From: Desulfosarcina ovata subsp. ovata
Lineage (GTDB): Bacteria; Desulfobacterota; Desulfobacteria; Desulfobacterales; Desulfosarcinaceae
Length of the DNA stretch: 64,000 nt
Assembly (NCBI RefSeq): GCF_009689005.1
Contig: NZ_AP021879.1
Coordinates: 7,565,501-7,629,500, forward strand
Reading direction: 5' to 3'
Shown one piece after another: positions 1,696-23,055 of this stretch. The position numbers and the translations under genes were made by a program. The notes below the pieces were generated by a model that searched no databases, was not told where the DNA came from, and saw nothing but the letters and a program-made list of their open reading frames with translations. The first letter of the stretch is position 1, and each line of letters starts with the position of its first letter.

Positions 1696-4263
1696 ATGGT
1701 AACCGAAAAGCCGTTGTTTTCCTGGATCCTGAAGCGATACCGGGCGGCGCAGGTCGCTCTTCTGATCCTGATGCTGGCGAGTATCGTGCTGCGCATCCTG
1801 CCCCTTGAATTTCAGAAACGGATTGTCAATACGGCCATTGCCGATGGGAATACCCCTCTCCTTATCCGCTATTGTATTTTATTTCTGCTCGCCCTGATCA
1901 TCGCGGGGGGGTTGAAATACGTGGGTAACGTGGCCGAAAAATGGATCGGCCTGAAGCTGACCGAGGAGATTCGCAACCGGCTTTTCACCCATGTGCTGAC
2001 CTTGCCCATGGGCTATTTTCGGCATACGGCACCCGGCACCGTCATTACCGCCCTGACCGCCGAACTCAGCGCGGTCAGCTTTTTTTTGGGCGGTGCGTTG
2101 GTGGTTCCCATCACCAGCCTTCTAACGTTCTTGCTTTTTTTCGCCTATATGGTTTATCTTGAGCCGTATCTGGCATTGATCACATTGATCATTTACCCGT
2201 TTGAAGTCGCCATCGTGCCGCAACTCCAAAAACGGATGAACCAGCTGAATGTCAGGCGGATTCATGTGGTTCGCCAGATGAGCAACCAGATCGGTGAATC
2301 GGTGGCCGGGATACACGAAATCCATGGCAATGCGAGTTTTCGCTTGGAGGCCAACCGATTTGCGGCCGAGAGCGCGGGCCTGACGGAGATTGTCAAACGC
2401 ACCTTCGTCCTGAAATACGGTGTTAAATTCCTGAACAATATTTTTCAGCACCTGGGGCCGTTCTTCCTTTTCCTGGTCGGCGGCTATCTTGCCATCGAGG
2501 GGCGATTTTCGCTGGGGGCCCTGGTCGCCTTTCTCTCGGCCCACGAAAAGCTGTATGACCCGTGGAAGGAGATATTGGAATACTATCAAAATTATCAGGA
2601 CGCCAACGTCCGCTATCGACGGGTCATGGCGCAGTTCGACCGCCAGCCGGACTTCGTGTTGAACGGCGCGTCGCCACCCGCCCAACAATTTGCCGGCAAT
2701 ATACGGGTTCAGGGCCTCAGCTATTCCATCGGCAGCCACGTTCACCTGTTGAGTGATGTCAATATGAACGTCCGGCACGGCGAACTTGTGGCGCTGGTCG
2801 GCCCTTCGGGCAGTGGAAAAAGCACCCTGGCGATGCTAATCGGCCAGCAATACCGTTACCGACGGGGCAGCATCCGCATCGATCATCAGGAGTTGAGCGA
2901 TCTGAACAAACGCGATATCAGCAGCAATATCGGATTTGTTGCCCAGCATCCGTTCATTTTCAGCGGCACGATCCGGGATAATTTGTGTTACAGCCGCCGA
3001 GCCCTGAGGGAAGCGGATGCATCAGGTCATGCCCGGAAGTTGCCAACAACGTCCGAGCTTCTGGATGTCGTGTATCAGGTGGGGTTGACTGACGACATCC
3101 TGCGTTTCGGATTGCACGCAAAGCTGGCGCCGGACGACGAAGACAATCTGGCAGCGCCCATCGTCGAACTGCGGCGTTTGTTGCGCAGGGAAGCGGACGC
3201 AAGCATCCAGGGACTGATCGAATCCTACGACGTTCACCGGTATCTGGCGTATGGCAGTATCTATGAGAATATCGTTTTTGGGCGCCCTTTAGATCCGGCC
3301 TATGGAATCGACACGGTTGCCGGACATCCGGTCTTTGTCGATTTTCTTTACGCCCAGGGGATCTATACCCAACTTGTTGATTTGGGATTTCAAATTGCCC
3401 GGGCAACCGTACAACTGCTGGAAGGTGTCCAGCCGGAGGCGCTTTTTTTCGCCTCCAGTCCCATGTCCCTGGACGAGTTCGAGCGCTATCGGGACATCAT
3501 CGACCACCACAACGTTCAGCGGGAACGCCCCGTCTGGCAGGAAGAAGATGAAAAGGCGCTTTTAACGCTCGCCTTGCGCTTCGTGCCCGGCCGCCATAAA
3601 ATGATTGCCTTGCCGGCACAATTAAAACGTCTGTTGCTTGCGGCGCGCAACGCCTTTCTGGTTCAAATCGGAAACATCGATCCATCGGTATGCGAATCCG
3701 ATGGCGCAATGGGCACCGTGAACCATGCCGCTGCGTCCATCAATCGCCCGTCGGCGCCATTTGCCTTTTATTGCCCGAATGACCTGATTTATATGGCACC
3801 GATCATCGAGAATATTGTGTTCGGAAAAGCCATCTCCGACGATCCCGCTGAGCGGGCGGAACTGGATGGCATCGTCTTCAAACTGCTCAGAACCCAAAAG
3901 GTCACCGAATCCATCGTTGCCATGGGACTTGGCTTTGACGTCGGCTCCAAGGGAGATCGCCTGTCCGGTGGGCAGCGACAAAAGCTGGCTCTGGCCAGGG
4001 CGCTGTTGAAATACCCGTCGGTTCTGATTCTGGACGAAGCCACCGCCAGCCTGGACAATATGTCCCAGGCCCAAATTCAGCGGCTGCTGGAGACCCAAAT
4101 GCGTTCGAAGACAACCGTCATTGCGGTGATCCATCGGCTGGATCTCCTGCCGGGGTATGACCAGGTCGTGGTATTGGAGGGCGGCAGGATTACCGAATCG
4201 GGAACTTACGACGAACTCATCCATCGCAAAGGGGCATTGTATGACCTTATCCAAAGCCACTGA
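1696..4263 (+). CDS. ABC exporter with an expanded nucleotide-binding domain (copy 1)
   Basis: A type-IV ABC half-transporter of 855 residues: an N-terminal six-helix membrane domain (about 1-330) fused to an ATPase domain. Walker A GPSGSGKST is at 369-377, LSGGQ at 756-760 and Walker B ending LILDEATA near 776-783. Walker A and LSGGQ are normally about 105-110 residues apart; here they are 387 apart. The extra stretch holds three copies of a D/E-N-[LI]-x-[YF]-[SG] motif (DNLCYS at 428, ENIVFG at 524, ENIVFG at 705), as if the post-Q-loop segment had been duplicated. ATG 1696 is chosen over upstream TTG 1639 because AGGAG lies 5 nt before it. It overlaps the CNB gene by 23 nt. The substrate is unknown. 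It is homologous to the - strand protein at 18850-21363. Confidence 0.85.
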   Translation: MVTEKPLFSWILKRYRAAQVALLILMLASIVLRILPLEFQKRIVNTAIADGNTPLLIRYCILFLLALIIAGGLKYVGNVAEKWIGLKLTEEIRNRLFTHVLTLPMGYFRHTAPGTVITALTAELSAVSFFLGGALVVPITSLLTFLLFFAYMVYLEPYLALITLIIYPFEVAIVPQLQKRMNQLNVRRIHVVRQMSNQIGESVAGIHEIHGNASFRLEANRFAAESAGLTEIVKRTFVLKYGVKFLNNIFQHLGPFFLFLVGGYLAIEGRFSLGALVAFLSAHEKLYDPWKEILEYYQNYQDANVRYRRVMAQFDRQPDFVLNGASPPAQQFAGNIRVQGLSYSIGSHVHLLSDVNMNVRHGELVALVGPSGSGKSTLAMLIGQQYRYRRGSIRIDHQELSDLNKRDISSNIGFVAQHPFIFSGTIRDNLCYSRRALREADASGHARKLPTTSELLDVVYQVGLTDDILRFGLHAKLAPDDEDNLAAPIVELRRLLRREADASIQGLIESYDVHRYLAYGSIYENIVFGRPLDPAYGIDTVAGHPVFVDFLYAQGIYTQLVDLGFQIARATVQLLEGVQPEALFFASSPMSLDEFERYRDIIDHHNVQRERPVWQEEDEKALLTLALRFVPGRHKMIALPAQLKRLLLAARNAFLVQIGNIDPSVCESDGAMGTVNHAAASINRPSAPFAFYCPNDLIYMAPIIENIVFGKAISDDPAERAELDGIVFKLLRTQKVTESIVAMGLGFDVGSKGDRLSGGQRQKLALARALLKYPSVLILDEATASLDNMSQAQIQRLLETQMRSKTTVIAVIHRLDLLPGYDQVVVLEGGRITESGTYDELIHRKGALYDLIQSH

Positions 4264-4795
4264 ACCGGGTATTGATGCTCCTGAAAACGTGAAACCCGAG
4301 CTTTTGGAAAATTTTGATCTGCTGCGCATCCTACCGGCATTTGCCGGACTGTCGTATAAAATCCTGCAGCTCTATGCTTATCTGGCCCGCCGCAAGACGT
4401 ACGAAGCCGGTGCCTCCATTTTCGAGTCGGGGCAGCCGGCCACGCGTGCCTACATTGTGCGCCAGGGGCGGGTTCAATTGTACATCACCCGAGGTTCCCG
4501 TGAAACCGGGCTTCAGATTCTGGAACAACAGGGTTTTTTCGGTTATATGGCCCTGTTGGCAGGTTTCCAATGGCCGATTGGTGCCAGGGCCCTTGTGCGG
4601 ACGGAACTGCTCACCCTGGACCGGGATCGGTTCAAGCAATTGGTCCATCAATTTCCCGAGGAAAGCATGCAGGTGGTTGAGAAGCTGGTCCAATTGAAAA
4701 TGCATCGCATGCAGCAGCACATGGAGACGCTGATGCAAAGTGCCAACGATGAGCGGCAACAGCTGTTGTTTTTCCGAATGGAAAACGATTATTAA
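4241..4795 (+). CDS. CNB-domain protein coupled to exporter copy 1
   Basis: A 184-residue protein with one cyclic-nucleotide-binding/Crp-like beta-roll domain (about 25-145) and a helical tail. There is no DNA-binding helix-turn-helix, so it is not a Crp-type transcription factor. In the phosphate-binding cassette the usual Gly-Glu is Gly-Tyr (FFGYMALLAG) and the conserved Arg-Ala is not evident, so cNMP binding is doubtful. ATG 4241 lies inside the last codons of the exporter gene (23-nt overlap), which implies translational coupling and probably a physical partnership. The same arrangement recurs at 18354-18875 beside exporter copy 2. A regulatory or adaptor role for the exporter is inference. 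Confidence 0.75.
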   Translation: MTLSKATEPGIDAPENVKPELLENFDLLRILPAFAGLSYKILQLYAYLARRKTYEAGASIFESGQPATRAYIVRQGRVQLYITRGSRETGLQILEQQGFFGYMALLAGFQWPIGARALVRTELLTLDRDRFKQLVHQFPEESMQVVEKLVQLKMHRMQQHMETLMQSANDERQQLLFFRMENDY

Positions 4796-5054: not shown

Positions 5055-5738
5055 ATGGAAAAATCCACAGACAGCGGCGCTATCCGCATTGATCGTCAGG
5101 TTGTGCTCCCCTTTGATAAATCCTTGTCCATCGCTTTTCAGAGTATCCGGGTTCGGTTTTTCCGTTCGCTGATCACAACCCTCAATCTGGTGCTGGCAGT
5201 CGCTTTCCTATGTTTCGTCAGCCTCACCACCGATATTGCCAATGGCCTTCTGGCCTCCGGTGAGCCGGGATTGCGCCAAGCGTTGATCAACAGCGGCTAT
5301 GATTTGTCGCCGGAGGAAACCCATGTGGGCGCCAGCCCCAAGCAGCGCTGGATCCTCATTCTGTCGCTTCTGGTCTGTGTGGTGGGCATCGTCAACGCCC
5401 AGCTCATGGCGGTTACCGAAAGATTCCGTGAAATCGGCACCATGAAATGCCTTGGCGCCCTGAACCGGTTCATATTGAAGCTGTTTCTTTTGGAGGCTGC
5501 CATGCAGGGTCTTGCCGGCGCGTTGGTCGGGGCGCTTTGTGGCGGACTTTTTGCCCTGTTACACGGTCTCGTGCGTTTCAATTTGCCGGCAATGGCATGG
5601 CTGCCGGCAGGTGCAGTGCTGCGATCGGTGGCGGTATCCGTTGCCATCGGCTGTGGGCTAAACCTTTTGGGCGCTTTTTATCCGGCTCTGGTTGCCGCCC
5701 GCATGCAACCGGTGGCGGCCATGCGGGTGGATCAATGA
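5055..5738 (+). CDS. Short FtsX/MacB-type ABC permease
   Basis: A 227-residue membrane protein with the FtsX-family layout: one helix near residues 35-57, a very short extracytoplasmic segment (about 40 residues; MacB and LolC/E have about 200), then three C-terminal helices. The cytoplasmic loop VTERFREIGTMKCLGA matches the conserved coupling region of this family. The stop overlaps the ATPase start (ATGA), so the two are co-translated. ATG 5055 is preferred over TTG 5001, which lacks a ribosome binding site. It presumably pairs with the giant permease at 6498-11432 over a shared ATPase. The spacer 4796-5054 holds nothing I can name. Confidence 0.75.
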   Translation: MEKSTDSGAIRIDRQVVLPFDKSLSIAFQSIRVRFFRSLITTLNLVLAVAFLCFVSLTTDIANGLLASGEPGLRQALINSGYDLSPEETHVGASPKQRWILILSLLVCVVGIVNAQLMAVTERFREIGTMKCLGALNRFILKLFLLEAAMQGLAGALVGALCGGLFALLHGLVRFNLPAMAWLPAGAVLRSVAVSVAIGCGLNLLGAFYPALVAARMQPVAAMRVDQ

Positions 5739-6481
5739 ACATGGCAGACAGGAAAAACATCGTTCGCGTTTCCCGCGTCCACAAATCATTCAAGATGGGG
5801 GCGGTCTCCCTGGAGGCCCTCAAGGGCGTCGACCTTGAGATCCAGGCCGGACACTATATTTCCATCATGGGGCCCTCGGGCTCGGGCAAGTCCACCCTCT
5901 TCAATATGATCGGCGGACTGGATAAACCAACATCGGGCAAGGTCTTCATTGACGATATCGACATCGCCCAGTTGGACGCCTACGAGCTGGCTTGGCTGCG
6001 TTGCCGAAAAATCGGATACATTTTCCAGACCTTCAACCTGATTCCCGTGATGACGGCGTTGGAGAACGTCACCCTGCCGATGATTTTTGCCGGATTCGGC
6101 AGCGAAGAGGCCGTGGCCAAGGGAATGGAACTGCTCTCCCTGGTCGGTCTGGGCGATCGTTTCCAGCACAAACCCAGCGAGCTCAGCGGCGGGCAGCAGC
6201 AACGTGTCGCCGTGGCCCGCTCCATGGCCAACGACCCGGCCATCATTCTGGCGGATGAACCCACCGGTAACTTGGACCTTTCCACGGGAGAGGAGATTAT
6301 CGCTCTGTTGAAGCGGCTTTCGGCCGAAAAAAGGGTTACCGTTATCTCCGCCACCCACGACTTCAAGATGCTGAACGTGTCCGACCAGGTGATCTGGATT
6401 CGTGACGGCAAAGTCGAAAAAGTCGAAGACCGCGAAGATCTCTCCATCTCCCTTGGCCAGATTGAAGACAAGCAATTGTAA
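5735..6481 (+). CDS. MacB/LolD-type ABC ATPase
   Basis: A 248-residue ATPase with Walker A GPSGSGKST, Q-loop, signature LSGGQQQR, Walker B ILADEPTGNLD and switch His in SATHDFKM. The ADEPTGNLD form is characteristic of the LolD/MacB/FtsE branch, whose members work with FtsX-type permeases in mechanotransmission or lipoprotein release instead of classic import. It starts at ATG 5735 in a 4-nt overlap with the short permease and is followed 16 nt later by the large permease, so it most likely powers both. The exact substrate cannot be told from the sequence. Confidence 0.9.
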   Translation: MNMADRKNIVRVSRVHKSFKMGAVSLEALKGVDLEIQAGHYISIMGPSGSGKSTLFNMIGGLDKPTSGKVFIDDIDIAQLDAYELAWLRCRKIGYIFQTFNLIPVMTALENVTLPMIFAGFGSEEAVAKGMELLSLVGLGDRFQHKPSELSGGQQQRVAVARSMANDPAIILADEPTGNLDLSTGEEIIALLKRLSAEKRVTVISATHDFKMLNVSDQVIWIRDGKVEKVEDREDLSISLGQIEDKQL

Positions 6482-6497
6482 TAACGATCGAGTGACC

Positions 6498-9400
6498 ATG
6501 CACGAAGTTTCCCACAGACGATCCGTCAGGTGGTGGGCACGCCCGCGGCGACGATTCGCCTGCCGACGGACAACAGGTCTTGGCCTGGGTCTTTTTTTTG
6601 CCCTGATGGTTCTTTCCGGCGGCCATGCCACGGCAGCTCCCGACACCGGGCTGGAGGCGGTCGTCGCCCAACTCTCCCGTCTGGGCGACCGCAGTACGGG
6701 AACGACAGGTGCCGCCCGGGCTGCCGACTATATTGCGACCCATCTTACCGACCTGGGCATCGGCGATGTGGACCGCACCCCGTTTTTCCTGCCTGTACGC
6801 AGGCATGTCCAAAGCACCATAGAAATCGACGGACACCTGGTTCAAGAATCGATCACCCCCCTTTTGGCCAACGCCATTTCACCGGGAACGGCCGGCGGCG
6901 GTGGCATCGAAGGGCCGTTTTACTACGCCGGTCGGGGGGCACTTCACGACTACAACCGTATTCCCATGGTGGGCGCCATCATTGCCCTCGAGATGGATTC
7001 GAACCTCAATTGGCAGCATGCGGCGTCACTGGGGGCCAAGGCGGTGGTGTTTATTGACCGTGCGGGTCAATCCGGTTTTACACCCCGGTCCGAGTTCGAG
7101 GACAAACTGGAACTCTCGCCCATCGATTTTCCGCTCTTTCATCTGCCCGTTCAGGCCGCCAGGCGCCTATTCGGCGATTTCGACGCCATGCCGGAAAAAC
7201 GCCTGGCCAATACAATTAAACTTTTTTCAGATATCACCTGGCAAAACGAACGGGCTGAGAACATCTCCTGCCTGATCCCGGGCACGGACCCCGAGCTCCA
7301 GGCCCAGTTGCTGGTGGTGGAGGCCTTTTACGACACCAGTCGCTATCTTCCCGGAAATGCCCCCGGTGCCGATGAAGCCTTGAGCATTGCCTCGTTGCTG
7401 GCCCTGGCCACCGAATTCAAGCAACGGCCGCCCCGGCGTTCGGTGCTCTTGTTGGCCACGGCGGGGCATGCGCAGACCCTTGCCGGGATGCGTGAATTCA
7501 TTTGGAGTCTTACCACCAAGAGCAAGGAGATGAAGCGCCGCGAGGCCTTTCTTGAGGATACCAGCGGTCAGATAAAGGCCTATCTTCAGGCCCTGTCCGC
7601 ACTCGATCTTACCGGTGATTTGCGATCAGCGCTGCAGGGCACCCAGCACCCGGAGGTGATCATCGAGGCCCTTGCCGAAACCATCAAAACCGAGGTGGAT
7701 CGCCTGTCGGCCCACCTGATGGAATCTCGCATGCGGGCGCAGCCGTTGTCCAAAGAAGAGATGCAGGTCCTGGCCCGCGAACGGTTGGCGCTTCGGCAGC
7801 TTGGTTGGCGGACCCATCTGAACCGGCTGTCCGATCACGAAGCGGATCTGGTCAGGATGCTGGTGCCCCGGGCCCTTGCCGGTTATCGAGAGGACCTTGC
7901 CGATCTGGAAAACACGCAAAAAGCGCTCAAAAAGGCTCGCAAACTCAGAAAGCGACTGGACCCGTTCGACCTCAAAGTGGTGGTCTCGCTCCACCTTTCG
8001 AGCCATGGCGACGGGATCGGGGCCTTTTACCAGGGCTGGCTGTACTCCTTGGCGCCGAAAATCAATCACGTCGGCGCCTTCAGCCGCTTGAACCAGATCC
8101 TGATGGCGGTCGGCCAGGATTCAGGCGATGGCCCAAACCCGACGCCGCGCGTCCAGTTGTTCGAAACCTTGCGGCCCAGCCGCCTGCGGCCCTGGCAGGG
8201 TTATCTGCCGGACAGGCCGCAGCTGGGCGGGGAAATCAGCACGCTGGCCGGTTACCTTGGGTTGACCCTGGCCACCTGCAACGACCAGCGCAGCCGCTGG
8301 GGAACCCCTTACGATACCATGGCTCGGATCGACTGGGCATTCGCTACCGAGCAGCAGCACCTGGTGCAAACCCTTGTCCGCAGCCTGATCGAGGCGCCGC
8401 GCCACGATACCGGCAAAATGCCCAAAAACGCTTTTGCCACCGTGTACGGGTACGCCAAACGGCTACGCCACGGCGAGCTTTTTCCGGACCAGCCCACGCC
8501 CGGAACCGTGGTTATGGCCTTCCAGAATATGACGCGCTACTATACCATGGTGAACCGTCTGGGTGATTTCTATCTCAAGGGGGTGGCGACCAAGAAACAT
8601 GTGCCGGACAAACTGATCATCGAGGGCTACCGATTCGATTCGGCCACCGGTCGGGCGGTGTGGGCCATCGACAAGGTGCAGACCGGTAAGGACGCTTACC
8701 GGCTCAAGATCCGGCGGCGGTCCATGGAGACCGACCTGATCATGTTCAACTGCCGTCAGAGCACCCTGTTTAACCTGTTGGAACCGCGTAATTTCCGGTA
8801 TATGACAAAAATCAACATCCTGGACGGCCGACGGGAGGCCGAGCCACTGAGGTACTGGTACAGCCGCATCGACACGCGCCGTTCGGTGATCACGACGCTT
8901 TTCCTGCCGCCGGAGACCCGCTTCAAACTGACCCTTTCCGATTCGGTGCTGAATCGCAAATTGATCCTCACCCGGGCGACACCGAACCGGCCGGAGGGTG
9001 TTGGGTATGCCATTGATGCCTGGCCCCGGCTTTACCACACCGAATTTGCCGTTGCCCGGGACATGTGGGCCCTGACGATCCCCCGCATCGATAGTCTCGA
9101 ATCCCACGGCATCATCAATGTAAAATTGCACGATTTAAAAGACGCCGGCACGGCCGCCCTGACGCGCGCCCAGGACGCGCTGATGCGCAAGGCTTACGAC
9201 GATTTCACCCAGGCCGCCACCACTGCCTGGGCCCTGGCCGGTCGTGTGTACGACCAGGTGGAGAAGACCCGCAAGGATGTCCTTTTCGGTGTGCTGTTTT
9301 ATATCGCTCTGTTTGTTCCATTTGCCTTCTGTCTGGAGCGCCTTCTGTTCGGCTATACCAACATTCACAAGCGGCTCATCGCTTTTTCCGTCCTGCTATG

Positions 9401-13546: not shown

Positions 13547-15502
13547 ATGGATAAAGAACTCCAGGAATATCGCGACCTGCTCCCCCCGCCCGACCATTTC
13601 GAAGAGGGGTTTGACCTAAAGACAGTGATCGGGGCGATTTTCATCGGTTTTCTGATGATGCCCGGCAGCATGTACCTGCAACTGGTTATCGGCACGGGCA
13701 TCGGTCCCGCCGCCCGCTGGGTCACCATCATCCTGTTCGCCGAGGTCGCCAAACGTTCGTACACCGACTTGAAGCAGCAGGAGATCTTCCTGCTCTACTA
13801 TATGGCCGGCGCGGCCCTGGCCTCACCCTTCCAGGGGCTGTTGTGGCATCAATACCTGGTGCAGTCGGATGCGGCCAAGATGCTGGGACTGACCGAATTT
13901 ATTCCCCATTGGATCGCGCCGGGGCTCGATTCGGAGTCCCTGGTGGAGCGGACCTTCTTCCACCGGGACTGGATGATTCCTATCCTGCTGTTGATCGGGG
14001 CCCAGATCATCCAGCGCATTGACCATTTCGGACTGGGCTATGCGCTTTACCGCATCACCTCCGATGTGGAAAAGCTGCCTTTTCCCATGGCCCCTGTGGG
14101 TGCTCTGGGCACCATGGCCCTGGCGGAATCGACAGAAGACAAAAAAACATCCTGGAAATGGCGCATCTTTTCCATCGGGGGGGTGATCGGCCTTGGTTTC
14201 GGGGCTATTTACGTGCTCCTGCCCACCATTTCGGGGTTGATTTTCCTGGAACCCATCCGGTTGATTCCCATTCCCTGGATCGAACTGACGGGCCATACGG
14301 AAGACGTCTTGCCGGCGGTTGCCGTGGGCATCCAGCTCGATCTGGGCTTGGTCTTCATTGGTATGGTGCTTCCTTTTTGGGCCGTCATCGGCGGATTGAT
14401 CGGGTTGATCATCACGTTTGCTGCCAACCCGATGCTTTATCGCATGGGGATCCTGCACCGCTGGCACCCCGGCATGCAGACCGTCGATACGGTGTTCGCC
14501 AACAATTTTGATTTCTATATGAGCTTCGGTATCGGCCTTGGCCTGGCCATTGGCGCGGTGGGTATTTATGCGGTGATCGCCTCTTTCAGAAAATCAAACC
14601 GCAACCATCGGGGCAGTTTCAAGGAGCTTTTCAACCCCCCGCCAGGTCGGGGGGATTTCAATTTCTGGATATCCATCGGCATCTATGTGGCCGCCACCTT
14701 CGCCTATGTGGGCCTCTGCGTGCTGCTGGTTCCCAATTTTCCCTGGATTTTCTTTTTGGGTTACGGGTTCATCTACACCCCGGTGATCTCTTATATCTCC
14801 GCACGCATGGAAGGCATTGCCGGACAGTTTGTGAGCCTGCCGATGGTGCGGGAGGCCAGCTTTATCGCTGGTGCCAAATTTTTCGGCTACCAGGGCATAG
14901 AAATCTGGTACGCCCCCATTCCCTTTCATAACTACGGTGAAACGACCGTCCATTTCAGGGAAGTCGAGTTGACCGGTACAAGCATTCGCGGAATCATTAA
15001 AGCCGAGCTGGTGGTGTTTCCGGTGGTCATGGTGGCCAGTCTGCTGTTTTCCCAGTTTATCTGGCGTCTGGCTCCGATTCCATCCGCCAACTACCCCTAC
15101 GCCCAGGAGTTGTGGCATCTCCAGGCCCTCAATACACTGCTCATGCAGACCTCCACCCTCGAGGGCAGTGCCTTTTTTTACCAGGCGCTGAGCGCCAAGT
15201 ATATTCTCTCGGGACTGGGGTTCGGCCTGGTGACCTACATGCTTCTGACTTGCTTCGGCCTGCCTGTGTTACTAATATATGGCGTTGTCCGAGGGCTGGG
15301 CCAGACCACCCCTCACGGCATGCTGCTCGAGCTCATCGGGGCGTTGGTGGGGCGCTTTTTCTTTCTGAAACGGTATGGCGCCAAGTGGCGTCAATATGCG
15401 CCCGTACTACTGGCCGGTTTTTCCTGCGGCATGGGGCTGACCGGCATGTTCGCCATGGGGGTGGCCCTGATTCTGAAATCGCTGGGCCGTCTCGCTTATT
15501 AA
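13547..15502 (+). CDS. OPT-like oligopeptide-transporter family membrane protein
   Basis: A 651-residue polytopic protein with about 14 hydrophobic segments and a soluble N-terminus. The segment MMPGSMYLQLVIGTGIGPAA and the following helix resemble proteins annotated as peptide transporters of the OPT superfamily, which carry oligopeptides or metal chelates across the inner membrane. It sits 63 nt behind the DUF6785-like gene, with which it appears to share overall topology, so the two may act as a pair. No soluble binding protein is nearby. Peptide specificity is inferred from family resemblance alone. The start has only a weak ribosome binding site. Confidence 0.6.
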   Translation: MDKELQEYRDLLPPPDHFEEGFDLKTVIGAIFIGFLMMPGSMYLQLVIGTGIGPAARWVTIILFAEVAKRSYTDLKQQEIFLLYYMAGAALASPFQGLLWHQYLVQSDAAKMLGLTEFIPHWIAPGLDSESLVERTFFHRDWMIPILLLIGAQIIQRIDHFGLGYALYRITSDVEKLPFPMAPVGALGTMALAESTEDKKTSWKWRIFSIGGVIGLGFGAIYVLLPTISGLIFLEPIRLIPIPWIELTGHTEDVLPAVAVGIQLDLGLVFIGMVLPFWAVIGGLIGLIITFAANPMLYRMGILHRWHPGMQTVDTVFANNFDFYMSFGIGLGLAIGAVGIYAVIASFRKSNRNHRGSFKELFNPPPGRGDFNFWISIGIYVAATFAYVGLCVLLVPNFPWIFFLGYGFIYTPVISYISARMEGIAGQFVSLPMVREASFIAGAKFFGYQGIEIWYAPIPFHNYGETTVHFREVELTGTSIRGIIKAELVVFPVVMVASLLFSQFIWRLAPIPSANYPYAQELWHLQALNTLLMQTSTLEGSAFFYQALSAKYILSGLGFGLVTYMLLTCFGLPVLLIYGVVRGLGQTTPHGMLLELIGALVGRFFFLKRYGAKWRQYAPVLLAGFSCGMGLTGMFAMGVALILKSLGRLAY

Positions 15503-15565: not shown

Positions 15566-16189
15566 ATGACCGAAATCCGATTCAAAACGATCCTTGTTTT
15601 CGCCGCTTTGATTTGCTGCCTGGTAGGAACGGCTGTCGGTGAAGATGCCCCGATGTCCATCTGCCGCTATCGCCTTGGCGAGAATATTTCCGCCTACAAG
15701 GACCGCATCGATTGGGAATCGGTCATGCCCATCCGCTATCAACCATACCTCAGAGAGGCGGAAATCATCCCCGACAAGGAATTTAAAACCGGTCTGATTA
15801 CGTTTGGCGATTGTGCCGTCAAAGGCCGTATTATGCGCATCAAGCTGAAATACATCGACAACACGGAGGCATTTTACAAAAAGCTGCTGACCCGTTACAA
15901 AAGGCGTTTCGGCGAACCGGATGACTGGCGTGGCGATGCCTTTGGCGTCGTCAAGGCGTGGAAATGGTCCTTCAAAGACGCATCCGGAAGAAGCATCAGT
16001 CTGATTTTGCAGCACAATCATTTGGATCGGGAACAGAAGATGGGCAATTCCGTAAAACTTTCTTTAAGCGATTATTTCGACGAGGAATACCGCTGTTACC
16101 AGAACGCCAATCCGGAATTCAACTCGGAAAATCGGGGGCCCCGACGGTTGAAAGGAGATCTGGAATGGGATCGCCTGATTCCCCAATAA
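15566..16189 (+). CDS. Secreted protein of unknown function
   Basis: A 207-residue protein with a typical signal peptide: MTEIRFK, a hydrophobic stretch to about residue 22, and a likely cleavage near TAVGED. The mature part has two cysteines (positions 33 and about 89), a basic-aromatic segment (FYKKLLTRYKRRFGEP) and an acidic, Asn-rich C-terminus. I do not recognise the family. GAGGTG lies 4 nt before ATG 15566. It sits between the transporter pair and two cytosolic genes in the same operon, so a periplasmic accessory role is plausible but unproven. Confidence 0.6.
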   Translation: MTEIRFKTILVFAALICCLVGTAVGEDAPMSICRYRLGENISAYKDRIDWESVMPIRYQPYLREAEIIPDKEFKTGLITFGDCAVKGRIMRIKLKYIDNTEAFYKKLLTRYKRRFGEPDDWRGDAFGVVKAWKWSFKDASGRSISLILQHNHLDREQKMGNSVKLSLSDYFDEEYRCYQNANPEFNSENRGPRRLKGDLEWDRLIPQ

Positions 16190-16229
16190 AGCCCAGTCTC
16201 AAGGGGCCTCGAAGAGCTTTTGAAGCCGA

Positions 16230-17180
16230 ATGATAGAACCCGCCGAAGCTTTTTGGTCCACGCCTGATGACAATGCGGGCGTGCAAAATCCCGGGCAGCC
16301 CATCGCCTGGGATGGCATTCAGATCGTCGTGCCCATGACTTGGCAGATTCATACGCTTGATAGAAGCTACCTGAAAATGGTCGCCGATGATGGCACCGTT
16401 TTCGAGTTGAAATGGCGGCTCAACCAGAAACGGTTCAAGATCGACCGGTTTCTGGCACGCTTTATCAAACGTCACCAGCGCATGGTTGCCGGAACCATGC
16501 ATCCCGATCCGGTGCCTCACCAATGGCAGGCGATCCTGCCCGGTCGTGCCCTGCGCACCTTCAAATGGACCGAAGGCGACCATTGTGCACTGGGGGTGGT
16601 CGTTCATTGCCCTGTCTGCCATACCGCGACGCTGATGAAATTGTCGGGATTGCCATCAAAGCGCCTCGAGGCGATCGCCGCATCCGTTCTGGCGTCGTTT
16701 CAGGATCACGGAAAAAGGACCGCGGCATCGCCCTGGCAGCCCTGGCAGATTTTCGACATCCACGCCCGCCTGCCCCAAACCTATACACTGGCCCACCATC
16801 GGTTACTTTCCGGAAGCTTTGAGCTATCGTTTCTTTCGGATCAAACGCGGCTGCGTTTGTATCGGTGGGGGCCGGCGGCCGTTTTGCTGGAAGAGGTGGA
16901 ACTCAGGCAGTTCGCCCTTGACCATATCGATCCGCTGACGAAAGGCGGAATATGGTCGCCCATGTTTGATGCTCCGGCATGGTGCTGGCGCACACGGCCT
17001 CGCATCGGTATCGTTTCCCGGTTGGCGAACCCACGGCTAAGAGGTTACCGGTACCAAAGCGGCCGCATCTGGCATTTGTCCGGTCAGAATCGTATTCTGG
17101 CCGCGGTGATGGACGGAAGGCGCCCCATTGACGAGAAGATTCTGGAGAAAATTTGTGAGCAATATGGCTGCGATGCGTAA
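16230..17180 (+). CDS. Cytosolic protein of unknown function, two similar halves
   Basis: A 316-residue protein with no signal peptide or membrane helix. Two segments (about 25-140 and 165-280) each begin with a WxxxxxxxP-type strand pair (WDGIQIVVPMTWQI; WQIFDIHARLPQTY) followed by beta-rich sequence, which suggests two copies of one alpha/beta module, perhaps of the PsbP/Mog1 kind. That fold guess is weak. A CPVC pair is present near residue 131. It overlaps the PqqD-like gene by 26 nt, so the two are translated together and may work together. Function not assigned. Confidence 0.55.
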   Translation: MIEPAEAFWSTPDDNAGVQNPGQPIAWDGIQIVVPMTWQIHTLDRSYLKMVADDGTVFELKWRLNQKRFKIDRFLARFIKRHQRMVAGTMHPDPVPHQWQAILPGRALRTFKWTEGDHCALGVVVHCPVCHTATLMKLSGLPSKRLEAIAASVLASFQDHGKRTAASPWQPWQIFDIHARLPQTYTLAHHRLLSGSFELSFLSDQTRLRLYRWGPAAVLLEEVELRQFALDHIDPLTKGGIWSPMFDAPAWCWRTRPRIGIVSRLANPRLRGYRYQSGRIWHLSGQNRILAAVMDGRRPIDEKILEKICEQYGCDA

Positions 17181-17556
17181 ACCATCATCCAATCAATTGA
17201 CCCGGACGGCCGCCTTGGACTGTGTTCCGGTGAAAAACAGCCGCGTCATCACCCGGCGGATGGAAAACGGTTTGGTTCGCATCACCTATCCGGCCACCCA
17301 GAATACCTGGTTCGCCAAGCTGGCCAATGTTTTTGCACGCAAGGCTCCGGACCGTGTTTTCGTTCGCAAACTGGAACTCGACCATCTCGGCACCAGTGTG
17401 TGGCATATGATCGACGCCCGGCAATCGGTTCAAACGATCATCAGGCATTTTGCGGCCGCTCAGCAGCTCAGCTCGAGAGAGGCCGAGGTTTCGGTGACCC
17501 AATTTTTGCGTGAACTTGGCCGGCGGGGAATCATCGGCATGCGCCAGGCCCCGTGA
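17155..17556 (+). CDS. PqqD-like protein (RiPP recognition element fold)
   Basis: The C-terminal 85 residues match the PqqD pattern: LDHLGTSVWHMIDARQSVQT followed by a winged-helix-like stretch with VTQFLRELGRRGIIGM. PqqD-like domains bind leader peptides for modifying enzymes in ribosomal peptide pathways, but stand-alone members also occur without a known partner. No radical-SAM or other modifying enzyme is visible in this window. GTG 17155 is chosen because GGAG at 17144-17147 is 7 nt upstream; ATG 17164 is the alternative. It is the last gene of the + operon and ends 4 nt from the convergent STAS gene. Confidence 0.7.
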   Translation: MSNMAAMRKPSSNQLTRTAALDCVPVKNSRVITRRMENGLVRITYPATQNTWFAKLANVFARKAPDRVFVRKLELDHLGTSVWHMIDARQSVQTIIRHFAAAQQLSSREAEVSVTQFLRELGRRGIIGMRQAP

Positions 17557-17560
17557 TGTT

Positions 17561-17893
17561 TCAGAATGCGCCCAGTGCATCATCCAGTGTACCCACAATG
17601 GGCAGAAATGTATCGAAACCGGCTATTTCAAAGACTTCACGGATATAGTCGACCATCAGGCACAAAACGATCTTGCCGGCTTCGGGCTGCAACCGTTTGG
17701 TGGCCTTGTTCAGCACCCGCAGTCCGGCGCTGGAGATATATTCCAGGTCCTCACAATCGATCACCAGCTTGCTGCCACCACTGCCGATGATCTGCATCAG
17801 CACTTCGTCGAATTGGGGTGCCGTCATCGAATCGAGACGGCCGACTACCTTGAAGATGTGAATATCACCCTGCTTATTTTGGATTAGCTTCAT
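17561..17893 (-). CDS. STAS-domain anti-anti-sigma-type protein
   Basis: A 110-residue single STAS domain. The conserved phospho-acceptor region reads LEYISSAGLRVL, which keeps the Ser expected in SpoIIAA/RsbV proteins. In partner switching, the unphosphorylated STAS protein captures the anti-sigma kinase; the kinase inactivates it by phosphorylating this Ser and a PP2C phosphatase reactivates it. All three parts are in this operon (21412-23055, 17896-18333 and here). ATG 17893 has AAGGAG 6 nt upstream; earlier GTG/ATG codons sit too close to it. No sigma factor is adjacent, so the target may be another protein. Confidence 0.85.
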   Translation of the reverse strand: MKLIQNKQGDIHIFKVVGRLDSMTAPQFDEVLMQIIGSGGSKLVIDCEDLEYISSAGLRVLNKATKRLQPEAGKIVLCLMVDYIREVFEIAGFDTFLPIVGTLDDALGAF

Positions 17894-17895
17894 CA

Positions 17896-18333
17896 TCACT
17901 CCTTCTTGGAAAAAAGCGATCTCTTTTTCTTTAAAATCAGTATATTTTTGCCCCCTTGCCGCTGATAGCGGATTTCATCCATCATGGTTTTGATCATGTG
18001 GATGCCCAGCCCGCCCTCATGGCGATCGCACAAGGGTTTGCTCAGATCCGGGGCGGCTGTTGACAGTGGATTAAATGCCTGCCCATGGTCTTCAAATCGA
18101 ATCGTAATCGCCTCTTTTTCGAGATTCAACCTGATCTCTATCGCATGCGGGGTGTTATCGCTGAAGGCGTAGGCGACGATGTTGGTGAAGACCTCTTCGA
18201 TGGCTACCTCGAGTTGGTAGCGCACCCTTTTGTCCAGCCCCAGGGGGCTCAATACCCGCTCGAGTCCTTGGCACAGCGATGGCAGCGCTTTTAAATCGTT
18301 GGCGAGCGTCAGGTGTATCTGTTTAGACTTCAT
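17896..18333 (-). CDS. RsbW/SpoIIAB-like serine kinase (anti-sigma type)
   Basis: A 145-residue GHKL-fold ATPase. The N-box is EEVFTNIVAYAF, the G1 box FEDHGQAFNP, and the G2 box GGLGIHMIKTMMD. These are the ATP-binding motifs of the RsbW/SpoIIAB family, which phosphorylates a STAS partner and sequesters a sigma factor or other target. It lies 2 nt before the STAS start and 20 nt after the CNB gene. ATG 18333 begins where family homology begins, although no clear ribosome binding site is seen. Confidence 0.85.
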   Translation of the reverse strand: MKSKQIHLTLANDLKALPSLCQGLERVLSPLGLDKRVRYQLEVAIEEVFTNIVAYAFSDNTPHAIEIRLNLEKEAITIRFEDHGQAFNPLSTAAPDLSKPLCDRHEGGLGIHMIKTMMDEIRYQRQGGKNILILKKKRSLFSKKE

Positions 18334-18353
18334 CAAAAGATGGCCCACGGGGA

Positions 18354-18875
18354 TCAAAGCATGCTCACCCCCACGGGCATGGCCGTTTGGCCATCCTGCC
18401 CGCGACGGAGGTTTTGCTTTTCCCAATTTGCGATTTTGGTTGCAACAACCTGCATGATGAGCGGGTACAATTGCGGAAACGGGTCCAATGCCTGAGAGAA
18501 TTTTTCCCGGCTGAGCAACAGGCAATGCATCTGGGTCCGGGCGATGAGGGTGTACAGGCGATTCGTTTGGCCGATCAATGTCAGGCGGCCCAAAAATGTT
18601 CCTGCCTCATAGGTGCGTAGGGACGCGTCCGGATCCTTTTCCAGATCCACCAAACGGGCACTGCCTTCGATGATGTAGTAGGCCTGCCCATTGTCTTCTC
18701 CTTGACTGAAGAGCACGTCGCCGGGCTGGAACGTCTCCCGTTCGCACAAATAGGCAAATACTTTTAAACTCTCGATGGGAAGTCGGGCAAACAGATCAAT
18801 CTGCCGTAACATTTTCAGGTTGCTCTTGTATTCGCACTCCTGGCTGTTCTTATGCGTTTCCGTGCTCAAGCTCAT
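18354..18875 (-). CDS. CNB-domain protein coupled to exporter copy 2
   Basis: A 173-residue protein with a single Crp-like beta-roll (about 30-150) and no helix-turn-helix. The phosphate-binding cassette is altered (TFLGRLTLIGQTNRLYTL): the normal Glu after Gly is Arg, though one Arg may be retained. It begins inside the end of exporter copy 2 with a 26-nt overlap, the same coupling as the pair at 1696-4795. It is probably a regulatory or adaptor subunit of that exporter, or a link between the exporter and the downstream RsbW/STAS switch. That role is inference. Confidence 0.75.
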   Translation of the reverse strand: MSLSTETHKNSQECEYKSNLKMLRQIDLFARLPIESLKVFAYLCERETFQPGDVLFSQGEDNGQAYYIIEGSARLVDLEKDPDASLRTYEAGTFLGRLTLIGQTNRLYTLIARTQMHCLLLSREKFSQALDPFPQLYPLIMQVVATKIANWEKQNLRRGQDGQTAMPVGVSML

Positions 18876-21363
18876 ACAGGTGTCCTTTCTTTTGCATCAG
18901 CTCCGCATAGGTGCCGATTTCAACAATTTTACCCGCTTTCATCACGGCCACTTTATCAAATTCAACGATGGTATCCAAACGATGGACCACCGAAATCAAT
19001 GTACTTTTTCCTTTCCAGCGTTTTTGCAGAAGATTCTGAATGCGCGCCTGGGACTTATTGTCCAGGGCCGAGGTGGCTTCATCCATGATGAGGACCGGTG
19101 GCTTTTTCAGCAGCGCCCGGGCAATGGCCAGTTTTTGCCGCTGGCCGCCGGACAAATTTTCGCCCTTGCTGCCCACCATGAACTGCATGCCTGCCTCGAC
19201 AATGGTTTCCAGAAGATCTTCCTCGATGAGCAGCTGGATGATGCTCTGGTTGATCCGCTCCTGAGCACTGGACTTGCCTGTTTTGATCTGACCGAAAAAG
19301 ACGTTGTTCAAAATGGTCTGGGTGTGAATGTAGTCTGCCATGCGGTAAAACGCGACCACTCCATTCTCCTGGCTTTCGATTTTGGATCTGAACAGTGACC
19401 GACCCCTCAGAATCAATGCCTTCAGCCGGGGTGGCAGGCTGATCAGCTTGTGGACACCGGGGGTGAAGCGAAGGGCGAGCTGCACCACCGCCTGCCGTTC
19501 TTTGTCGGTCAGTTCATCGATCGTTTTGTTGCGAATTTGGTGGTAGAGTTCATTGAAATGCGGCATCTCGGATGGATCTACCGGGCTTTGTTTGAAGAAC
19601 ACCGGTTGCGGCGGTAGGCTGCCGAGAATGTCGATCAACGGATGCAACAGATTGATGCCCAAATGAATCAGATGCGGGGTAAGGTCCGCTTCTTCCAGAA
19701 ACTCCCGGAAAAATGGACTGTCCAAGCGTCGATCCGGCCCAAGGTCGGTTCGGATCGGTGTGCCGAATACTATATTTGTTGCGATGTCAGCATAATAAAG
19801 ATATTGTTGCTCATCATAAAATTCGACTACATCGGCCAGGGCCTGCCCGTAATCTTGTTGCAGTTTGGCACGGATGCGTAAAAGATCCGCCACCAATTGT
19901 TCCTCGCTGCCTTCGGGGATGACCGTATTCATGCCGAATCCCAGCACATCGACGAATATTCCGGTCTGGTGTAACATGGCGATGGCATCATCACGCGTGG
20001 GCAGCTGGCGCCCCACTACCGTGGCCGTTCCCTGAAGCGCCTTGCAGGCGTAAAACAGATTGTCGGCGATCGTACCATCGAAGATAAATGGCGCCTGGGA
20101 GACATACCCGATGGTAAGGGCCATGTCGCTTTTGGATAGCGCCGCCACTTCCTGTCCGCCGATGCTGACAGTCCCCCCCGTGTAGCGGTAAAGTTGCCCG
20201 ATGCACTGGGCCAGGGTACTCTTGCCGCTGCCGGAGAAACCCACCACCGCCAGATGCTCACCCTGGTCCAGCGTCAGCGAAATATCTCTTAAGAGCTGGA
20301 TGCCGTTTTCGGTGATAAAATTGAGGCCCCGGATGTCGATGTCACCTGGCAGTTCAATCGGTTCCCGCCCCGCGGGAAGCAAGGCATGATCCGGCTGGAT
20401 ATCAAAGCGTTGCATGGTGCGGCGATAGCGTATGGAGGCATCTTGAAAGGTCTGATAATTGTCCAGAAGTTCTTTCCAGGGCTCGGCAACACGCTCCTGG
20501 GCTGATAGAAATGCGACCATGGCACCGAGTTCCAGCCGACCGTGCATGGCCAGATAGCCGCCCAACAGGAAGACCACAAAGGGGCTCAGGTTGTTGAAAA
20601 AATTATTTGTGACCTTGACGCCGAAACGGTACAGGTTCCAGACCATTCGAATTCGAAACAGCTGTTCCACAATGCGGTCGAATCTCTGATTTTCGATTGA
20701 GAATGCACCGTTGGACTGAACTTCATGAATACCGGTGATGGTCTCACCGATAATGCTGGACATCTCCCGGGTTGCGTCCACGCGCCGTTTGTTGGCCTCG
20801 TTGGCGTGTTTCTGGATCAGCGGCACTAGGAATAGGACGATGGGATAGGTGACCATGGAAATGGCGGCCAGCAGCGGATTTAGCCAGAACAGGTATGCCG
20901 CGAAAGCCAGGAGGGTCAAAACGCTGGTGACCGGTCCGGCCAGGGCGACGCCCACGAAATCACCTGCCGGGGCAATCTCTGTTACCAGCGCAGAGACCAC
21001 CATGCCGGGTTGGGTTTTCCTGAAGAAATGGAGCGGCAATGTGATGATATGGTGATAAAGGGCCTGGCGTATGTTGGCCAGTGCCCGTTGGCCGATGTAA
21101 GTCTGCAGGGCGTTAGCGGCCATTTTCAATCCGGACGCTACGACGATCGCACCCAGGTAGATCAGGCTGTAAAGGACCAGCATGTCGACCTTTTTCAGCT
21201 TGATGGCATGGTTGACAATCCGCTTTTGCATCTCCAGTGGCAGCACGCGCAAAGCCACCATGATCAGAATGATGATTAAAAGCAGAATCTGAAGCTTGAT
21301 GTTGCCCTCAAAAACGAACGAGTAGAGTGATCGTTTGACAATGGGCGGTCGGGCTTTTGGCAT
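18850..21363 (-). CDS. ABC exporter with an expanded nucleotide-binding domain (copy 2)
   Basis: An 837-residue half-transporter and paralogue of the protein at 1696-4263. The membrane domain covers about 1-335. Walker A GFSGSGKST is at 375-383, LSGGQ at 737-741, and Walker B is VLIMDEATSALD. As in copy 1 the Walker A to signature distance is far too long (362 residues), and the expansion carries three related motifs: DNLFYA (434), TNIVFG (529-534) and NNVFFG (686). The first two are 96 residues apart in both paralogues. AAGGGA precedes ATG 21363 by 7 nt. It follows the PP2C gene by 48 nt and overlaps the CNB gene. Substrate unknown. Confidence 0.85.
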   Translation of the reverse strand: MPKARPPIVKRSLYSFVFEGNIKLQILLLIIILIMVALRVLPLEMQKRIVNHAIKLKKVDMLVLYSLIYLGAIVVASGLKMAANALQTYIGQRALANIRQALYHHIITLPLHFFRKTQPGMVVSALVTEIAPAGDFVGVALAGPVTSVLTLLAFAAYLFWLNPLLAAISMVTYPIVLFLVPLIQKHANEANKRRVDATREMSSIIGETITGIHEVQSNGAFSIENQRFDRIVEQLFRIRMVWNLYRFGVKVTNNFFNNLSPFVVFLLGGYLAMHGRLELGAMVAFLSAQERVAEPWKELLDNYQTFQDASIRYRRTMQRFDIQPDHALLPAGREPIELPGDIDIRGLNFITENGIQLLRDISLTLDQGEHLAVVGFSGSGKSTLAQCIGQLYRYTGGTVSIGGQEVAALSKSDMALTIGYVSQAPFIFDGTIADNLFYACKALQGTATVVGRQLPTRDDAIAMLHQTGIFVDVLGFGMNTVIPEGSEEQLVADLLRIRAKLQQDYGQALADVVEFYDEQQYLYYADIATNIVFGTPIRTDLGPDRRLDSPFFREFLEEADLTPHLIHLGINLLHPLIDILGSLPPQPVFFKQSPVDPSEMPHFNELYHQIRNKTIDELTDKERQAVVQLALRFTPGVHKLISLPPRLKALILRGRSLFRSKIESQENGVVAFYRMADYIHTQTILNNVFFGQIKTGKSSAQERINQSIIQLLIEEDLLETIVEAGMQFMVGSKGENLSGGQRQKLAIARALLKKPPVLIMDEATSALDNKSQARIQNLLQKRWKGKSTLISVVHRLDTIVEFDKVAVMKAGKIVEIGTYAELMQKKGHLYELEHGNA

Positions 21364-21411
21364 GGCTTGTCCCTTACGGTCGGCAGTCCGACAATGGAAA
21401 AAGCGGGCCCC

Positions 21412-23055
21412 TTACGCCAGTGTGGACGATGTTTTGGCTTCGCCTGCCGTTCGGCGAATTGCCAGGATGGTGATGTCGTCCATCAGTGCGGAAGAGCCGA
21501 TGAAATCGAACAGGTTTTGGCGAAGCGCGTCGACGGTGGCCTCCGCCGAAACCGAGCCTCCGGACTCGAGCATGGTTCGCAGCCGCTGGCGGGAGTAAAA
21601 TTCATCAAACGGAGAGCGGGCTTCGGTTACTCCATCCGTGTACCCAACGAGCAGCATTCCCGGATCAACGATTTTTTCACTGGGTTGATAAACATAATCG
21701 GCCACGAGTCCCACTGCCGGTCCCGTGTGGTTCAGCTGTTCGACCCTGCCCTTGGCGCCGACGGCGAAAACGGGTTCATGGCCCGCGTTAATATAGGTCA
21801 TCCGTCCCGTATCGGGATCGAGTACGCCAAAGAATATGGAGGCAAACATCCCCTCATCGCTATGGTTCTGCAGCAGGTAGGCATTGGTCAGGTCGATCGC
21901 CTTCAGCACATCGGTCTGATCGGCGGACGATTGGAATCGGCCCTTGAACATTGTACAGGATTCGGTCAGCCTGTTTTCGCGGATGGATCGATAGTTTCCC
22001 GAAAAAATGCGAACCAGGCTCCGGATCAACGCCATGTAAAATGCGGCCCCGACGCCTTTGTCGGCCACGTCACCGATGACGAACCCAACCCGGCCGTAAG
22101 GCAGTTCGAATACATCGTAAAAGTCGCCTGACACTTGCCGGGCCGGGAAGAACGCTGCCGCAACCTCCCAATTTGTCAGCGGTGGAAACCGTTTGGGAAG
22201 AAATTCACGTTGAATCTGACGACCTTTTTCGAGTTCATTGTTCAGGGCTTTCGTATAGTTCTCTACCTGTGCCAGACTTTGTTGCAATGAATGCTCGGCA
22301 CGTTTTCGCCTGTCAATGGCTTCCAGAATCTGATCGAACATATTTCTGAATGCAATTATCACATCGCCCAATTCATCGGGCCGGTTTTTGACGTCGGCTG
22401 TGAATGACGGCGCATGGCGATCGGCCTGTACGGCCTCACCGGCATTGATGAGATCCTGGCGCAGCCTGAGAATCGGCTTGATGACAAGCGGATTGATAGC
22501 CAGCCATGTGCCGGCGGTGACGAAAACCGAAATGATGATCACCAGGCCGATAATCCGCAGGATGAATGCATGCAGTTCATGGCGCGCACCCATGGCGTCA
22601 TGCCGCAGTATCAGGATGTAATCATTGCCGGGACCGGCAATGAAACAAAGTGCGTCATACCGATACGTCCGGCGGTTCAACAATTCTCGATGCATTTCAG
22701 GTGTCTTTGGAGAGACCTCCAGCACCGGTTTTTCGCCAAAGGTGCCGATTTGTTCATCACCATCACTCGTGTAAAGCCGGCCGCCCAGTACCGAAGAACG
22801 TACCAAATAGGTGCGATACAGGTTCAGAAGGTCCTGGCCGGATGCCTCCTTGCCAGCCATATGGGTGACAACTTTCACCCGTGCAATGCTCACTGCCCTG
22901 AGTTGCGCCAACAATTCGTTGCGCCGGTTGTTGGCCGACAGAATGAGAATGATTCCCTCGATCACGATGACACACAGAAACACCCACAACACCAAACGCA
23001 GGCTCAACCGGGCCTTGGGGACGTGGTTAAATAGTCGCTTGATAACCGGGGGCAT
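21412..23055 (-). CDS. Membrane-anchored PP2C (RsbU/SpoIIE-type) phosphatase with HAMP
   Basis: A 547-residue sensor phosphatase. Helix 1 (about 21-40), an extracytoplasmic region of about 120 residues and helix 2 (about 163-188) are followed by a HAMP domain (about 183-240), a coiled coil, and a PP2C catalytic domain. Metal-binding motifs are SGDFYDVF (from 319), GDVADKGVGAA (from about 338), INAGHEP, GYTDGVTEA and MDDITILAI. This is the layout of signal-responsive RsbU phosphatases that dephosphorylate STAS proteins. It is the first gene of the operon that ends in RsbW and STAS, so the periplasmic domain probably provides the input of that switch. Confidence 0.9.
   Translation of the reverse strand: MPPVIKRLFNHVPKARLSLRLVLWVFLCVIVIEGIILILSANNRRNELLAQLRAVSIARVKVVTHMAGKEASGQDLLNLYRTYLVRSSVLGGRLYTSDGDEQIGTFGEKPVLEVSPKTPEMHRELLNRRTYRYDALCFIAGPGNDYILILRHDAMGARHELHAFILRIIGLVIIISVFVTAGTWLAINPLVIKPILRLRQDLINAGEAVQADRHAPSFTADVKNRPDELGDVIIAFRNMFDQILEAIDRRKRAEHSLQQSLAQVENYTKALNNELEKGRQIQREFLPKRFPPLTNWEVAAAFFPARQVSGDFYDVFELPYGRVGFVIGDVADKGVGAAFYMALIRSLVRIFSGNYRSIRENRLTESCTMFKGRFQSSADQTDVLKAIDLTNAYLLQNHSDEGMFASIFFGVLDPDTGRMTYINAGHEPVFAVGAKGRVEQLNHTGPAVGLVADYVYQPSEKIVDPGMLLVGYTDGVTEARSPFDEFYSRQRLRTMLESGGSVSAEATVDALRQNLFDFIGSSALMDDITILAIRRTAGEAKTSSTLA

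Follow-up and report, generated by a model that had tools for sequence, protein, structure and literature searches.

A co-travelling gene set around a type VII ABC complex in Desulfosarcina ovata and its relatives: a candidate envelope machine

Type VII ATP-binding cassette (ABC) systems such as MacAB-TolC, LolCDE, FtsEX and YbbAP-TesA combine a LolD/MacB-like ATPase with FtsX-type permeases, and the driving of a periplasmic domain from the cytoplasm is the mechanism of the class. A complex of this make is encoded by Desulfosarcina ovata subsp. ovata within a stretch of 64,000 nucleotides (positions 7565501-7629500 of the single 7.63-Mb contig NZ_AP021879.1, assembly GCF_009689005.1; hereafter the window), in the company of two exporters, several membrane proteins and a partner switch. 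We found that these genes almost certainly form one functional set, to which a glycosyltransferase/deacetylase cluster upstream of the window also belongs, and that this co-travelling set of about 20 genes looks like a machine that builds or moves a sugar-containing envelope molecule.

An original prediction, made from the sequence alone, had described thirteen genes in three tight units. Gene order and spacing agree with the three units, which between positions 1696 and 23055 hold 15 packed genes (Table 1). The first unit is ABC1-CNB1, an exporter with a small cyclic-nucleotide-binding-fold (CNB) protein; the second is FtsX-ATPase-giant-DUF6785-OPT-like-Hsec-I316-PqqD, the giant being a permease with a large ectodomain; and the third, convergent to the second, is PP2C-ABC2-CNB2-RsbW-STAS. 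PqqD, the last gene on the forward strand, ends at 17556 and STAS of the convergent unit at 17561. Pfam matches bear out most of the predicted parts: ABC_membrane with ABC_tran in both exporters, cNMP_binding in both of their partners, FtsX twice together with one ABC ATPase, Peptidase_M28 and FtsX in the giant, DUF6785 with DUF6784, PqqD (PF05402, 27.7 bits against a cut-off of 23.4), and a SpoIIE-type PP2C, HATPase_c_2 and STAS in the convergent operon, so that all three domain types of a partner switch lie in one gene run. The OPT-like, Hsec and I316 genes (13547-15502, 15566-16189 and 16230-17180) match no Pfam family.

The predicted FtsX-type ABC complex is of the type VII class, with PF02687 in both permeases and ABC_tran in the ATPase, and its profiles match MacB; however, its proteins fall below the curated NCBIfam equivalog cut-offs for LolD (223.9 against 307.75), MacB (216.5 against 966) and LolCE (44.6 against 362.45). 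It differs from the described systems in having two unequal FtsX subunits, one of them fused to an M28-fold ectodomain without a zinc site, and in having DUF6785 and the OPT-like protein as constant partners, whereas no MacA, LolA or TesA was recognised at the locus. A more composite parallel is the deposition of the heterocyst envelope by HepA and DevBCA, which likewise brings together an MsbA-type exporter, a MacB-type complex and glycosyltransferases. The locus proteins find some of their best matches, below cut-offs, in the HepA and DevA models, but we know of no DUF6785, OPT-like protein, M28 giant, PqqD or I316 in that system. The membrane half of the giant (residues 905-1537 of a 1676-residue open reading frame, window 9114-11012) also resembles the CARF_m8 'CARF_LolE_TM' family of PADLOC (E 7.6e-60); this match, however, stops at position 597 of the 810 in the model, leaving its last quarter unmatched, and neither the ectodomain nor the C-terminal 177 residues searched alone gave a PADLOC hit, so that no CARF domain is apparent. 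One of the matched CARF_m8 LolE-like models also carries the label beta-galactosidase. Among the 10 proteins submitted to PADLOC only the two exporters and this LolE-like region found matches, and we do not read the locus as anti-phage defence.

YbbAP-TesA is reported to combine a type VII ABC transporter with a periplasmic hydrolase in acting on molecules taken out of the membrane (PMC12646458). Partner switches of phosphatase/kinase and STAS proteins that govern polysaccharide genes are described for Syp of Vibrio fischeri and Hmp of Nostoc (PMC8256260); in contrast to these, the switch of our locus runs convergently to the core operon and is not seen in many of the related loci. Literature searches with DUF6785, DUF6784 and sets of terms for the locus gave no description of it among the papers listed, subscription papers being mostly beyond their reach, and a paper on polysaccharide pathways in syntrophic sulfate reducers (PMC10553843) does not use the words 'oligopeptide', 'FtsX', 'glycosyltransferase' or 'PqqD' in the main text. 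Thus the single parts come from known families, and their combination appears to be undescribed.

Evidence for a single set comes from joint presence and absence across 146 genomes of the window's order, which fall in 104 genera and are not independent; the p-values given here ignore phylogeny. The OPT-like gene, the giant ectodomain, DUF6785 and the insert of the split-ABC exporters were each detected in 45 of these genomes. GT28a of the glycosyltransferase cluster has matches at E up to 1e-40 in 46, and I316 was found in 44; the deacetylase total of 29 takes in one partial match (G277). All six main markers are found together in 36 genomes, at least one in 50 and none in 96 (Fisher p about 1e-31 to 1e-35, uncorrected). 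The giant and the OPT-like gene co-occur in 44 genomes and each stands without the other in a single genome (p 4e-35). When core genomes are defined as the 46 with either of these two genes, the absentees among them number two for DUF6785, three for the exporter insert, two for GT28a, two for I316 and 18 for the deacetylase, and the corresponding numbers present in the 100 non-core genomes are one, two, two, none and one. Given this definition, the independent tests are the pairing of the giant with the OPT-like gene and that of the other markers with the core. One genome (G250) has DUF6785 alone among the markers.

This joint presence is not confined to linked genes. The giant and the OPT-like gene share a contig in 32 of the 44 genomes and lie on different contigs in 12, some of which are contig breaks. 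In G036 the genes Hsec-I316-PqqD and STAS-RsbW-CNB-ABC make up a cluster of their own on another contig, arranged as in the window, and in G161 the core is about 80 kb away from PqqD, I316, Hsec, CNB and one exporter and about 17 kb away from the second exporter, its CNB, RsbW and STAS. Five further stretches were examined for the exporter-bearing module (module C below); the one from G287 holds only Hsec and I316 of it, and that from G282 has ABC, CNB, RsbW and STAS but lacks Hsec, I316 and PqqD. Presence is patchy, the 45 genomes with the OPT-like gene being spread over 27 families while the three other genomes of the window's own family all lack it. A TonB-dependent receptor used as a control was found in five of the 146 genomes (E up to 1e-40), namely the window's own and four without the core.

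The gene neighbourhood recurs as well. When 247 genomes of the phylum were searched with the giant, 138 gave some match (E up to 0.001), but relatives over most of its length were found in only 15, the window's own included, the remaining listed matches being short hits to the FtsX or M28 segment. In each of the other 14 the FtsX permease, the ATPase and the giant stand side by side. DUF6785 and the OPT-like gene follow directly in 10 of the 14 (over a contig break in G135), and at distances of 2.8 kb in G161 and 12 kb in G106; in G073 DUF6785 is in the usual place and the OPT-like gene on a separate contig, and in G213 the contig end cuts the locus off. The OPT-like gene occurs in 20 of 297 genomes of the phylum, among them all 15 with a full-length giant, and all 20 matches exceed 1250 bits, with no weaker relatives.

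We further compared 80 loci, the best 80 of 225 relatives retrieved with an alignment of the OPT-like protein from public genomes. Nearly all are titled Desulfobacterota or deltaproteobacterial, with one Pseudomonadota and one Proteobacteria; this sample leans to close relatives, and the genomes with a full-length giant take in more distant ones. Neighbours were counted only in loci with room on the side concerned, leaving out matches below 45 bits, and exporters, CNB and switch genes only downstream of the OPT-like gene. By this count DUF6785 accompanies the OPT-like gene in 70 of 71 loci, the giant in 52 of 56, the ATPase in 49 of 53 and FtsX in 42 of 48, followed by PqqD (35 of 44), I316 (33 of 45), Hsec (32 of 48), an exporter (26 of 42) and CNB (23 of 42). 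Upstream, GT28 and the deacetylase are each present in 23 of 47. The least constant parts are the switch genes STAS (15 of 42), RsbW (15 of 42) and PP2C (9 of 42), and the control receptor is present in none of the 80. An unbiased clustering of open reading frames from these loci and the window yielded 60 clusters occurring in at least six loci. In 55 of these, half or more of the members overlap genes belonging to the set, many being antisense or out of frame, and the other five are unrelated neighbours in 12, 11, 8, 7 and 6 loci. A recurrence above chance, as had been proposed, is therefore borne out by the 80 loci and the 146 genomes, and within the window's phylum we found neither homologues scattered without a common neighbourhood nor a known name for the locus.

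A few of the 80 loci depart from the common arrangement. In L082 the OPT-like gene is isolated, the roughly 10 kb on each side holding nothing else of the set. In L077, L081, L106, L113 and L122, genes for an arginase-family and an Omp85 protein precede the DUF6785-OPT-like pair in the place of the FtsX complex, with TamB additionally upstream in L077, L106 and L122. The possibility that another machine replaces the giant in the latter three was rejected, the TamB, Omp85 and arginase-family genes being unrelated to the giant; we read their upstream genes, from those loci alone, as a rearrangement. In L086 two Hsec genes lie in tandem (5814-6437 and 6603-7226).

The partner that best points to a substrate is the cluster GT28-GT4-GT4-histidine phosphatase-GT28-deacetylase, located upstream of the window (L139:8338-14546, genome 7553838-7560046) and not visible to the original prediction. 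In G036 and G135 it runs contiguously into the complex as GT28b-GT4a-GT4b-HisPhos-GT28a-PDA-FtsX-FtsE-giant. G037 and G233 have both GT28 and both GT4 genes before FtsX, with two other genes replacing the phosphatase and no deacetylase, and in G162, G187 and G211 the cluster is represented next to FtsX by GT28a alone, which is preceded by a gene whose product we take to resemble poly-gamma-glutamate hydrolases. Of the 14 genomes besides the window's own that have a full-length giant, 10 carry GT28 genes in the examined neighbourhood. The deacetylase is found in 28 of the 46 core genomes against one of the 100 others, and through it and GT28a the cluster belongs to the set.

The ectodomain of the giant was modelled with good confidence (predicted local distance difference test, pLDDT, 84.8), and the model, which is of the M28 fold, superimposes on BSAP with a Z of 26.3 over 372 aligned residues (root-mean-square deviation 4.8), the apical domain being matched too; the beta-rich part past about residue 630 lies outside the rows of this structure match. 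The residues compared here are those that in M28 enzymes serve as zinc ligands and catalytic Glu. Across the family of the giant the first His of the HxD motif is Phe in 55 of 55 non-gap rows, the Glu pair reads His in 49 of 55 and Ala, Ser, Asn or Gly in 52 of 55, and the last His is Gly or Ser in 60 of 60, the site being placed by motif at low alignment scores; the Asp residues of HxD and PGAD are kept. Three zinc-ligand positions are thus replaced throughout the family, and the alignments indicate that the earlier label of pseudopeptidase is right. The same domain contains a near-invariant His pair in the stretch SLHLSSHG (window 7986-8009), which could form another, rebuilt site.

Both exporters retain the Walker A, signature and Walker B motifs, but their nucleotide-binding domains are split: the distance from Walker A to the signature is 357-387 residues in all 28 scored of 29 sequences, against 104 in the ATPase of the complex. 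They score 308.4 and 301.6 with the curated MsbA model, which demands 602, and no credible relative of the insert was found among solved structures. The OPT-like protein is exceptionally conserved, with a mean column identity of 83% in 13 sequences from nine families and 71-85% identity to twelve relatives of eight other families, which suggests strong constraint. Its predicted likeness to OPT proteins could be upheld only in part. The C-terminus of one relative matches PF03169 at E 7.9e-4 (18.7 bits, under the cut-off of 25.8) and a pairwise hhalign comparison with OPT gives E 5.6e-4 at a probability of 30; but searches with 23 members of the family (E up to 10) yielded no OPT hit, the OPT-like genes of the other carriers in the draw that contained that relative gave no PF03169 match, and the structure model is poor (pLDDT 33.9). 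Kinship to the OPT superfamily may accordingly be taken as a lead only. Comparisons of DUF6785 with OPT and with the OPT-like protein gave nothing above noise, no plasmid homologues of DUF6785 or the OPT-like protein were found, and no credible solved relatives were found for these two, Hsec or I316.

Table 1. Coordinates in the window of the genes of the locus
Feature	Position	Strand	Basis
ABC exporter 1, MsbA-type, with an insert of ~250-280 residues in the nucleotide-binding domain before the signature motif	1696..4263	+	Pfam, motif spacing
CNB1, small cyclic-nucleotide-binding-fold protein, exporter partner	4241..4795	+	Pfam
Small FtsX-type permease	5055..5738	+	Pfam
FtsE/LolD/MacB-like ATPase	5735..6481	+	Pfam, curated-model scores
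Giant: predicted periplasmic M28-fold pseudopeptidase, PA-like domain, further beta-rich domain, extra transmembrane helices, FtsX-type permease	6498..11432	+	Pfam, structure model, PADLOC
Giant, alternative start of the open reading frame (GTG)	6402	+	
DUF6785+DUF6784 polytopic membrane protein (open reading frame from TTG 11429)	11462..13483	+	Pfam
OPT-like: polytopic membrane protein of very high conservation, possibly a divergent member of the OPT superfamily	13547..15502	+	Alignment, hhalign
Hsec: no assigned family, one N-terminal hydrophobic stretch, probably secreted	15566..16189	+	
I316 (316 residues): no assigned family, largely conserved CxxC	16230..17180	+	
PqqD-like protein	17164..17556	+	Pfam
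STAS, anti-sigma-antagonist type	17561..17896	-	Pfam
RsbW-type serine kinase	17896..18333	-	Pfam
CNB2	18354..18875	-	Pfam
ABC exporter 2, split nucleotide-binding domain as in exporter 1	18850..21363	-	Pfam, motif spacing
SpoIIE-type PP2C phosphatase, two hydrophobic stretches with a probably extracytoplasmic segment between them	21412..23055	-	Pfam

Taken together, we tentatively read the locus as a machine for the assembly or export of an envelope glycoconjugate, organised around the type VII ABC complex and placed under the partner switch. It would be a three-module envelope system of the Desulfobacterota. Module A, the glycosyltransferase/deacetylase cluster, would make a glycan-containing molecule in the cytoplasm, and the MsbA-type exporters of module C, with their CNB partners, might carry this molecule or a companion over the inner membrane. 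In module B, the type VII complex, the ATPase would drive the two FtsX permeases, and the M28-fold ectodomain of the giant, having no zinc site, may hold or hand over the product of module A in the periplasm, DUF6785 and the OPT-like protein forming a membrane path or its anchor. PP2C, RsbW and STAS might switch the activity on an extracytoplasmic cue; sensing through a membrane-bound PP2C would be plausible. We consider it somewhat unlikely that the locus represents a new class of envelope machine, in which a type VII motor, its dead peptidase domain serving to hold the substrate, is coupled with the OPT-like/DUF6785 pair in the membrane and with split-ATPase exporters that have CNB partners, and makes a glycoconjugate new to sulfate reducers.

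Several observations weigh against the glycoconjugate interpretation. In the window's own genome 7 kb separate the glycosyltransferase cluster from ABC1; this gap holds a glycosyltransferase-1 gene, an ISL3-type transposase (L139:16297-17607, reverse strand), which may explain part of it here, a sigma-54 regulator, and an open reading frame crossing the window boundary, whose part inside the window has no Pfam match. The co-occurrence of module A is that of GT28a and the deacetylase, its other genes being included by linkage; the deacetylase is absent from the 18 core genomes mentioned above, and upstream GT28 is not seen in about half of the loci with room, although that room reaches little past FtsX. 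Among the 10 upstream open reading frames scanned we could recognise neither a polymerase or flippase nor a priming transferase or outer-membrane exit protein, so a standard polysaccharide pathway would be incomplete. One genome (G359) has GT28a, the deacetylase and a split exporter without the core, and shared descent among the 146 genomes inflates the p-values. Furthermore, pairs of CNB proteins and exporters are known from bacteriocin systems and, with PqqD, point to peptides, and OPT proteins act as importers.

The last two points lead to the main rivals. The original prediction had favoured a peptide-like substrate, and a system in which a peptide is presented by PqqD, leaves the cell through the exporters and is processed or imported by either the OPT-like/DUF6785 pair or the FtsX complex would account for a PqqD domain that clears its Pfam cut-off and recurs downstream of the OPT-like gene, for matches of the exporters to bacteriocin-exporter models (below cut-offs), and for the weak resemblance to OPT. 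Yet the M28 zinc-ligand positions are replaced, and no ATG-started open reading frame of 22-110 residues is conserved in the gaps of 86 sequences, in a scan that set aside starts of known genes and overlapping and antisense frames; peptide processing is therefore unsupported. With no recognised peptide-modifying enzyme in the recurring families, and the glycosyltransferase/deacetylase cluster as the strongest added and constant partner, we consider a peptide system unlikely; the only real indication of a peptide is PqqD. The glycosyltransferases and PqqD might instead act on one molecule, a glycosylated peptide or lipopeptide, which would explain why GT28a, the deacetylase and the exporters share one phyletic pattern, with PqqD joined by linkage; but no precursor gene was found in the gaps of the same 86 sequences and the recurring families include no recognised assembly enzyme, which leaves this reading improbable.

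It is equally improbable that the locus serves uptake, with the OPT-like protein and DUF6785 importing a small chelate or oligopeptide received from the FtsX complex and the glycosyltransferases forming a linked but separate trait. The OPT-like C-terminus does lean that way, through the PF03169 and hhalign matches given above, but the MsbA-type exporters and GT28a follow the same pattern of presence and DUF6785 has no link to OPT above noise. Finally, the genes can hardly be ordinary neighbours held together by shared descent without a common function. All genomes searched belong to one phylum, and one group of loci does keep the five families of unrelated neighbours noted above; this explanation is already disfavoured by the patchy distribution over 27 families, by joint presence where the modules are unlinked and by a control receptor that does not track the core.

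The glycoconjugate reading, if correct, may be relevant to surface construction and biofilm formation in sulfate reducers. The core occurs in 45 of the 146 genomes sampled from the order, about one third, and in 20 of 297 from the phylum, and the set gives a joint context to families that have remained unnamed, namely DUF6785/DUF6784, the OPT-like protein, Hsec, I316 and the split exporters. Cultured carriers of the core include Desulfatibacillum alkenivorans, Desulfogranum marinum and a Desulfopila sp., in which these proposals are testable. The TonB-dependent receptor that served as the control lies at 23736-25829 on the reverse strand, adjoining PP2C and outside the set.

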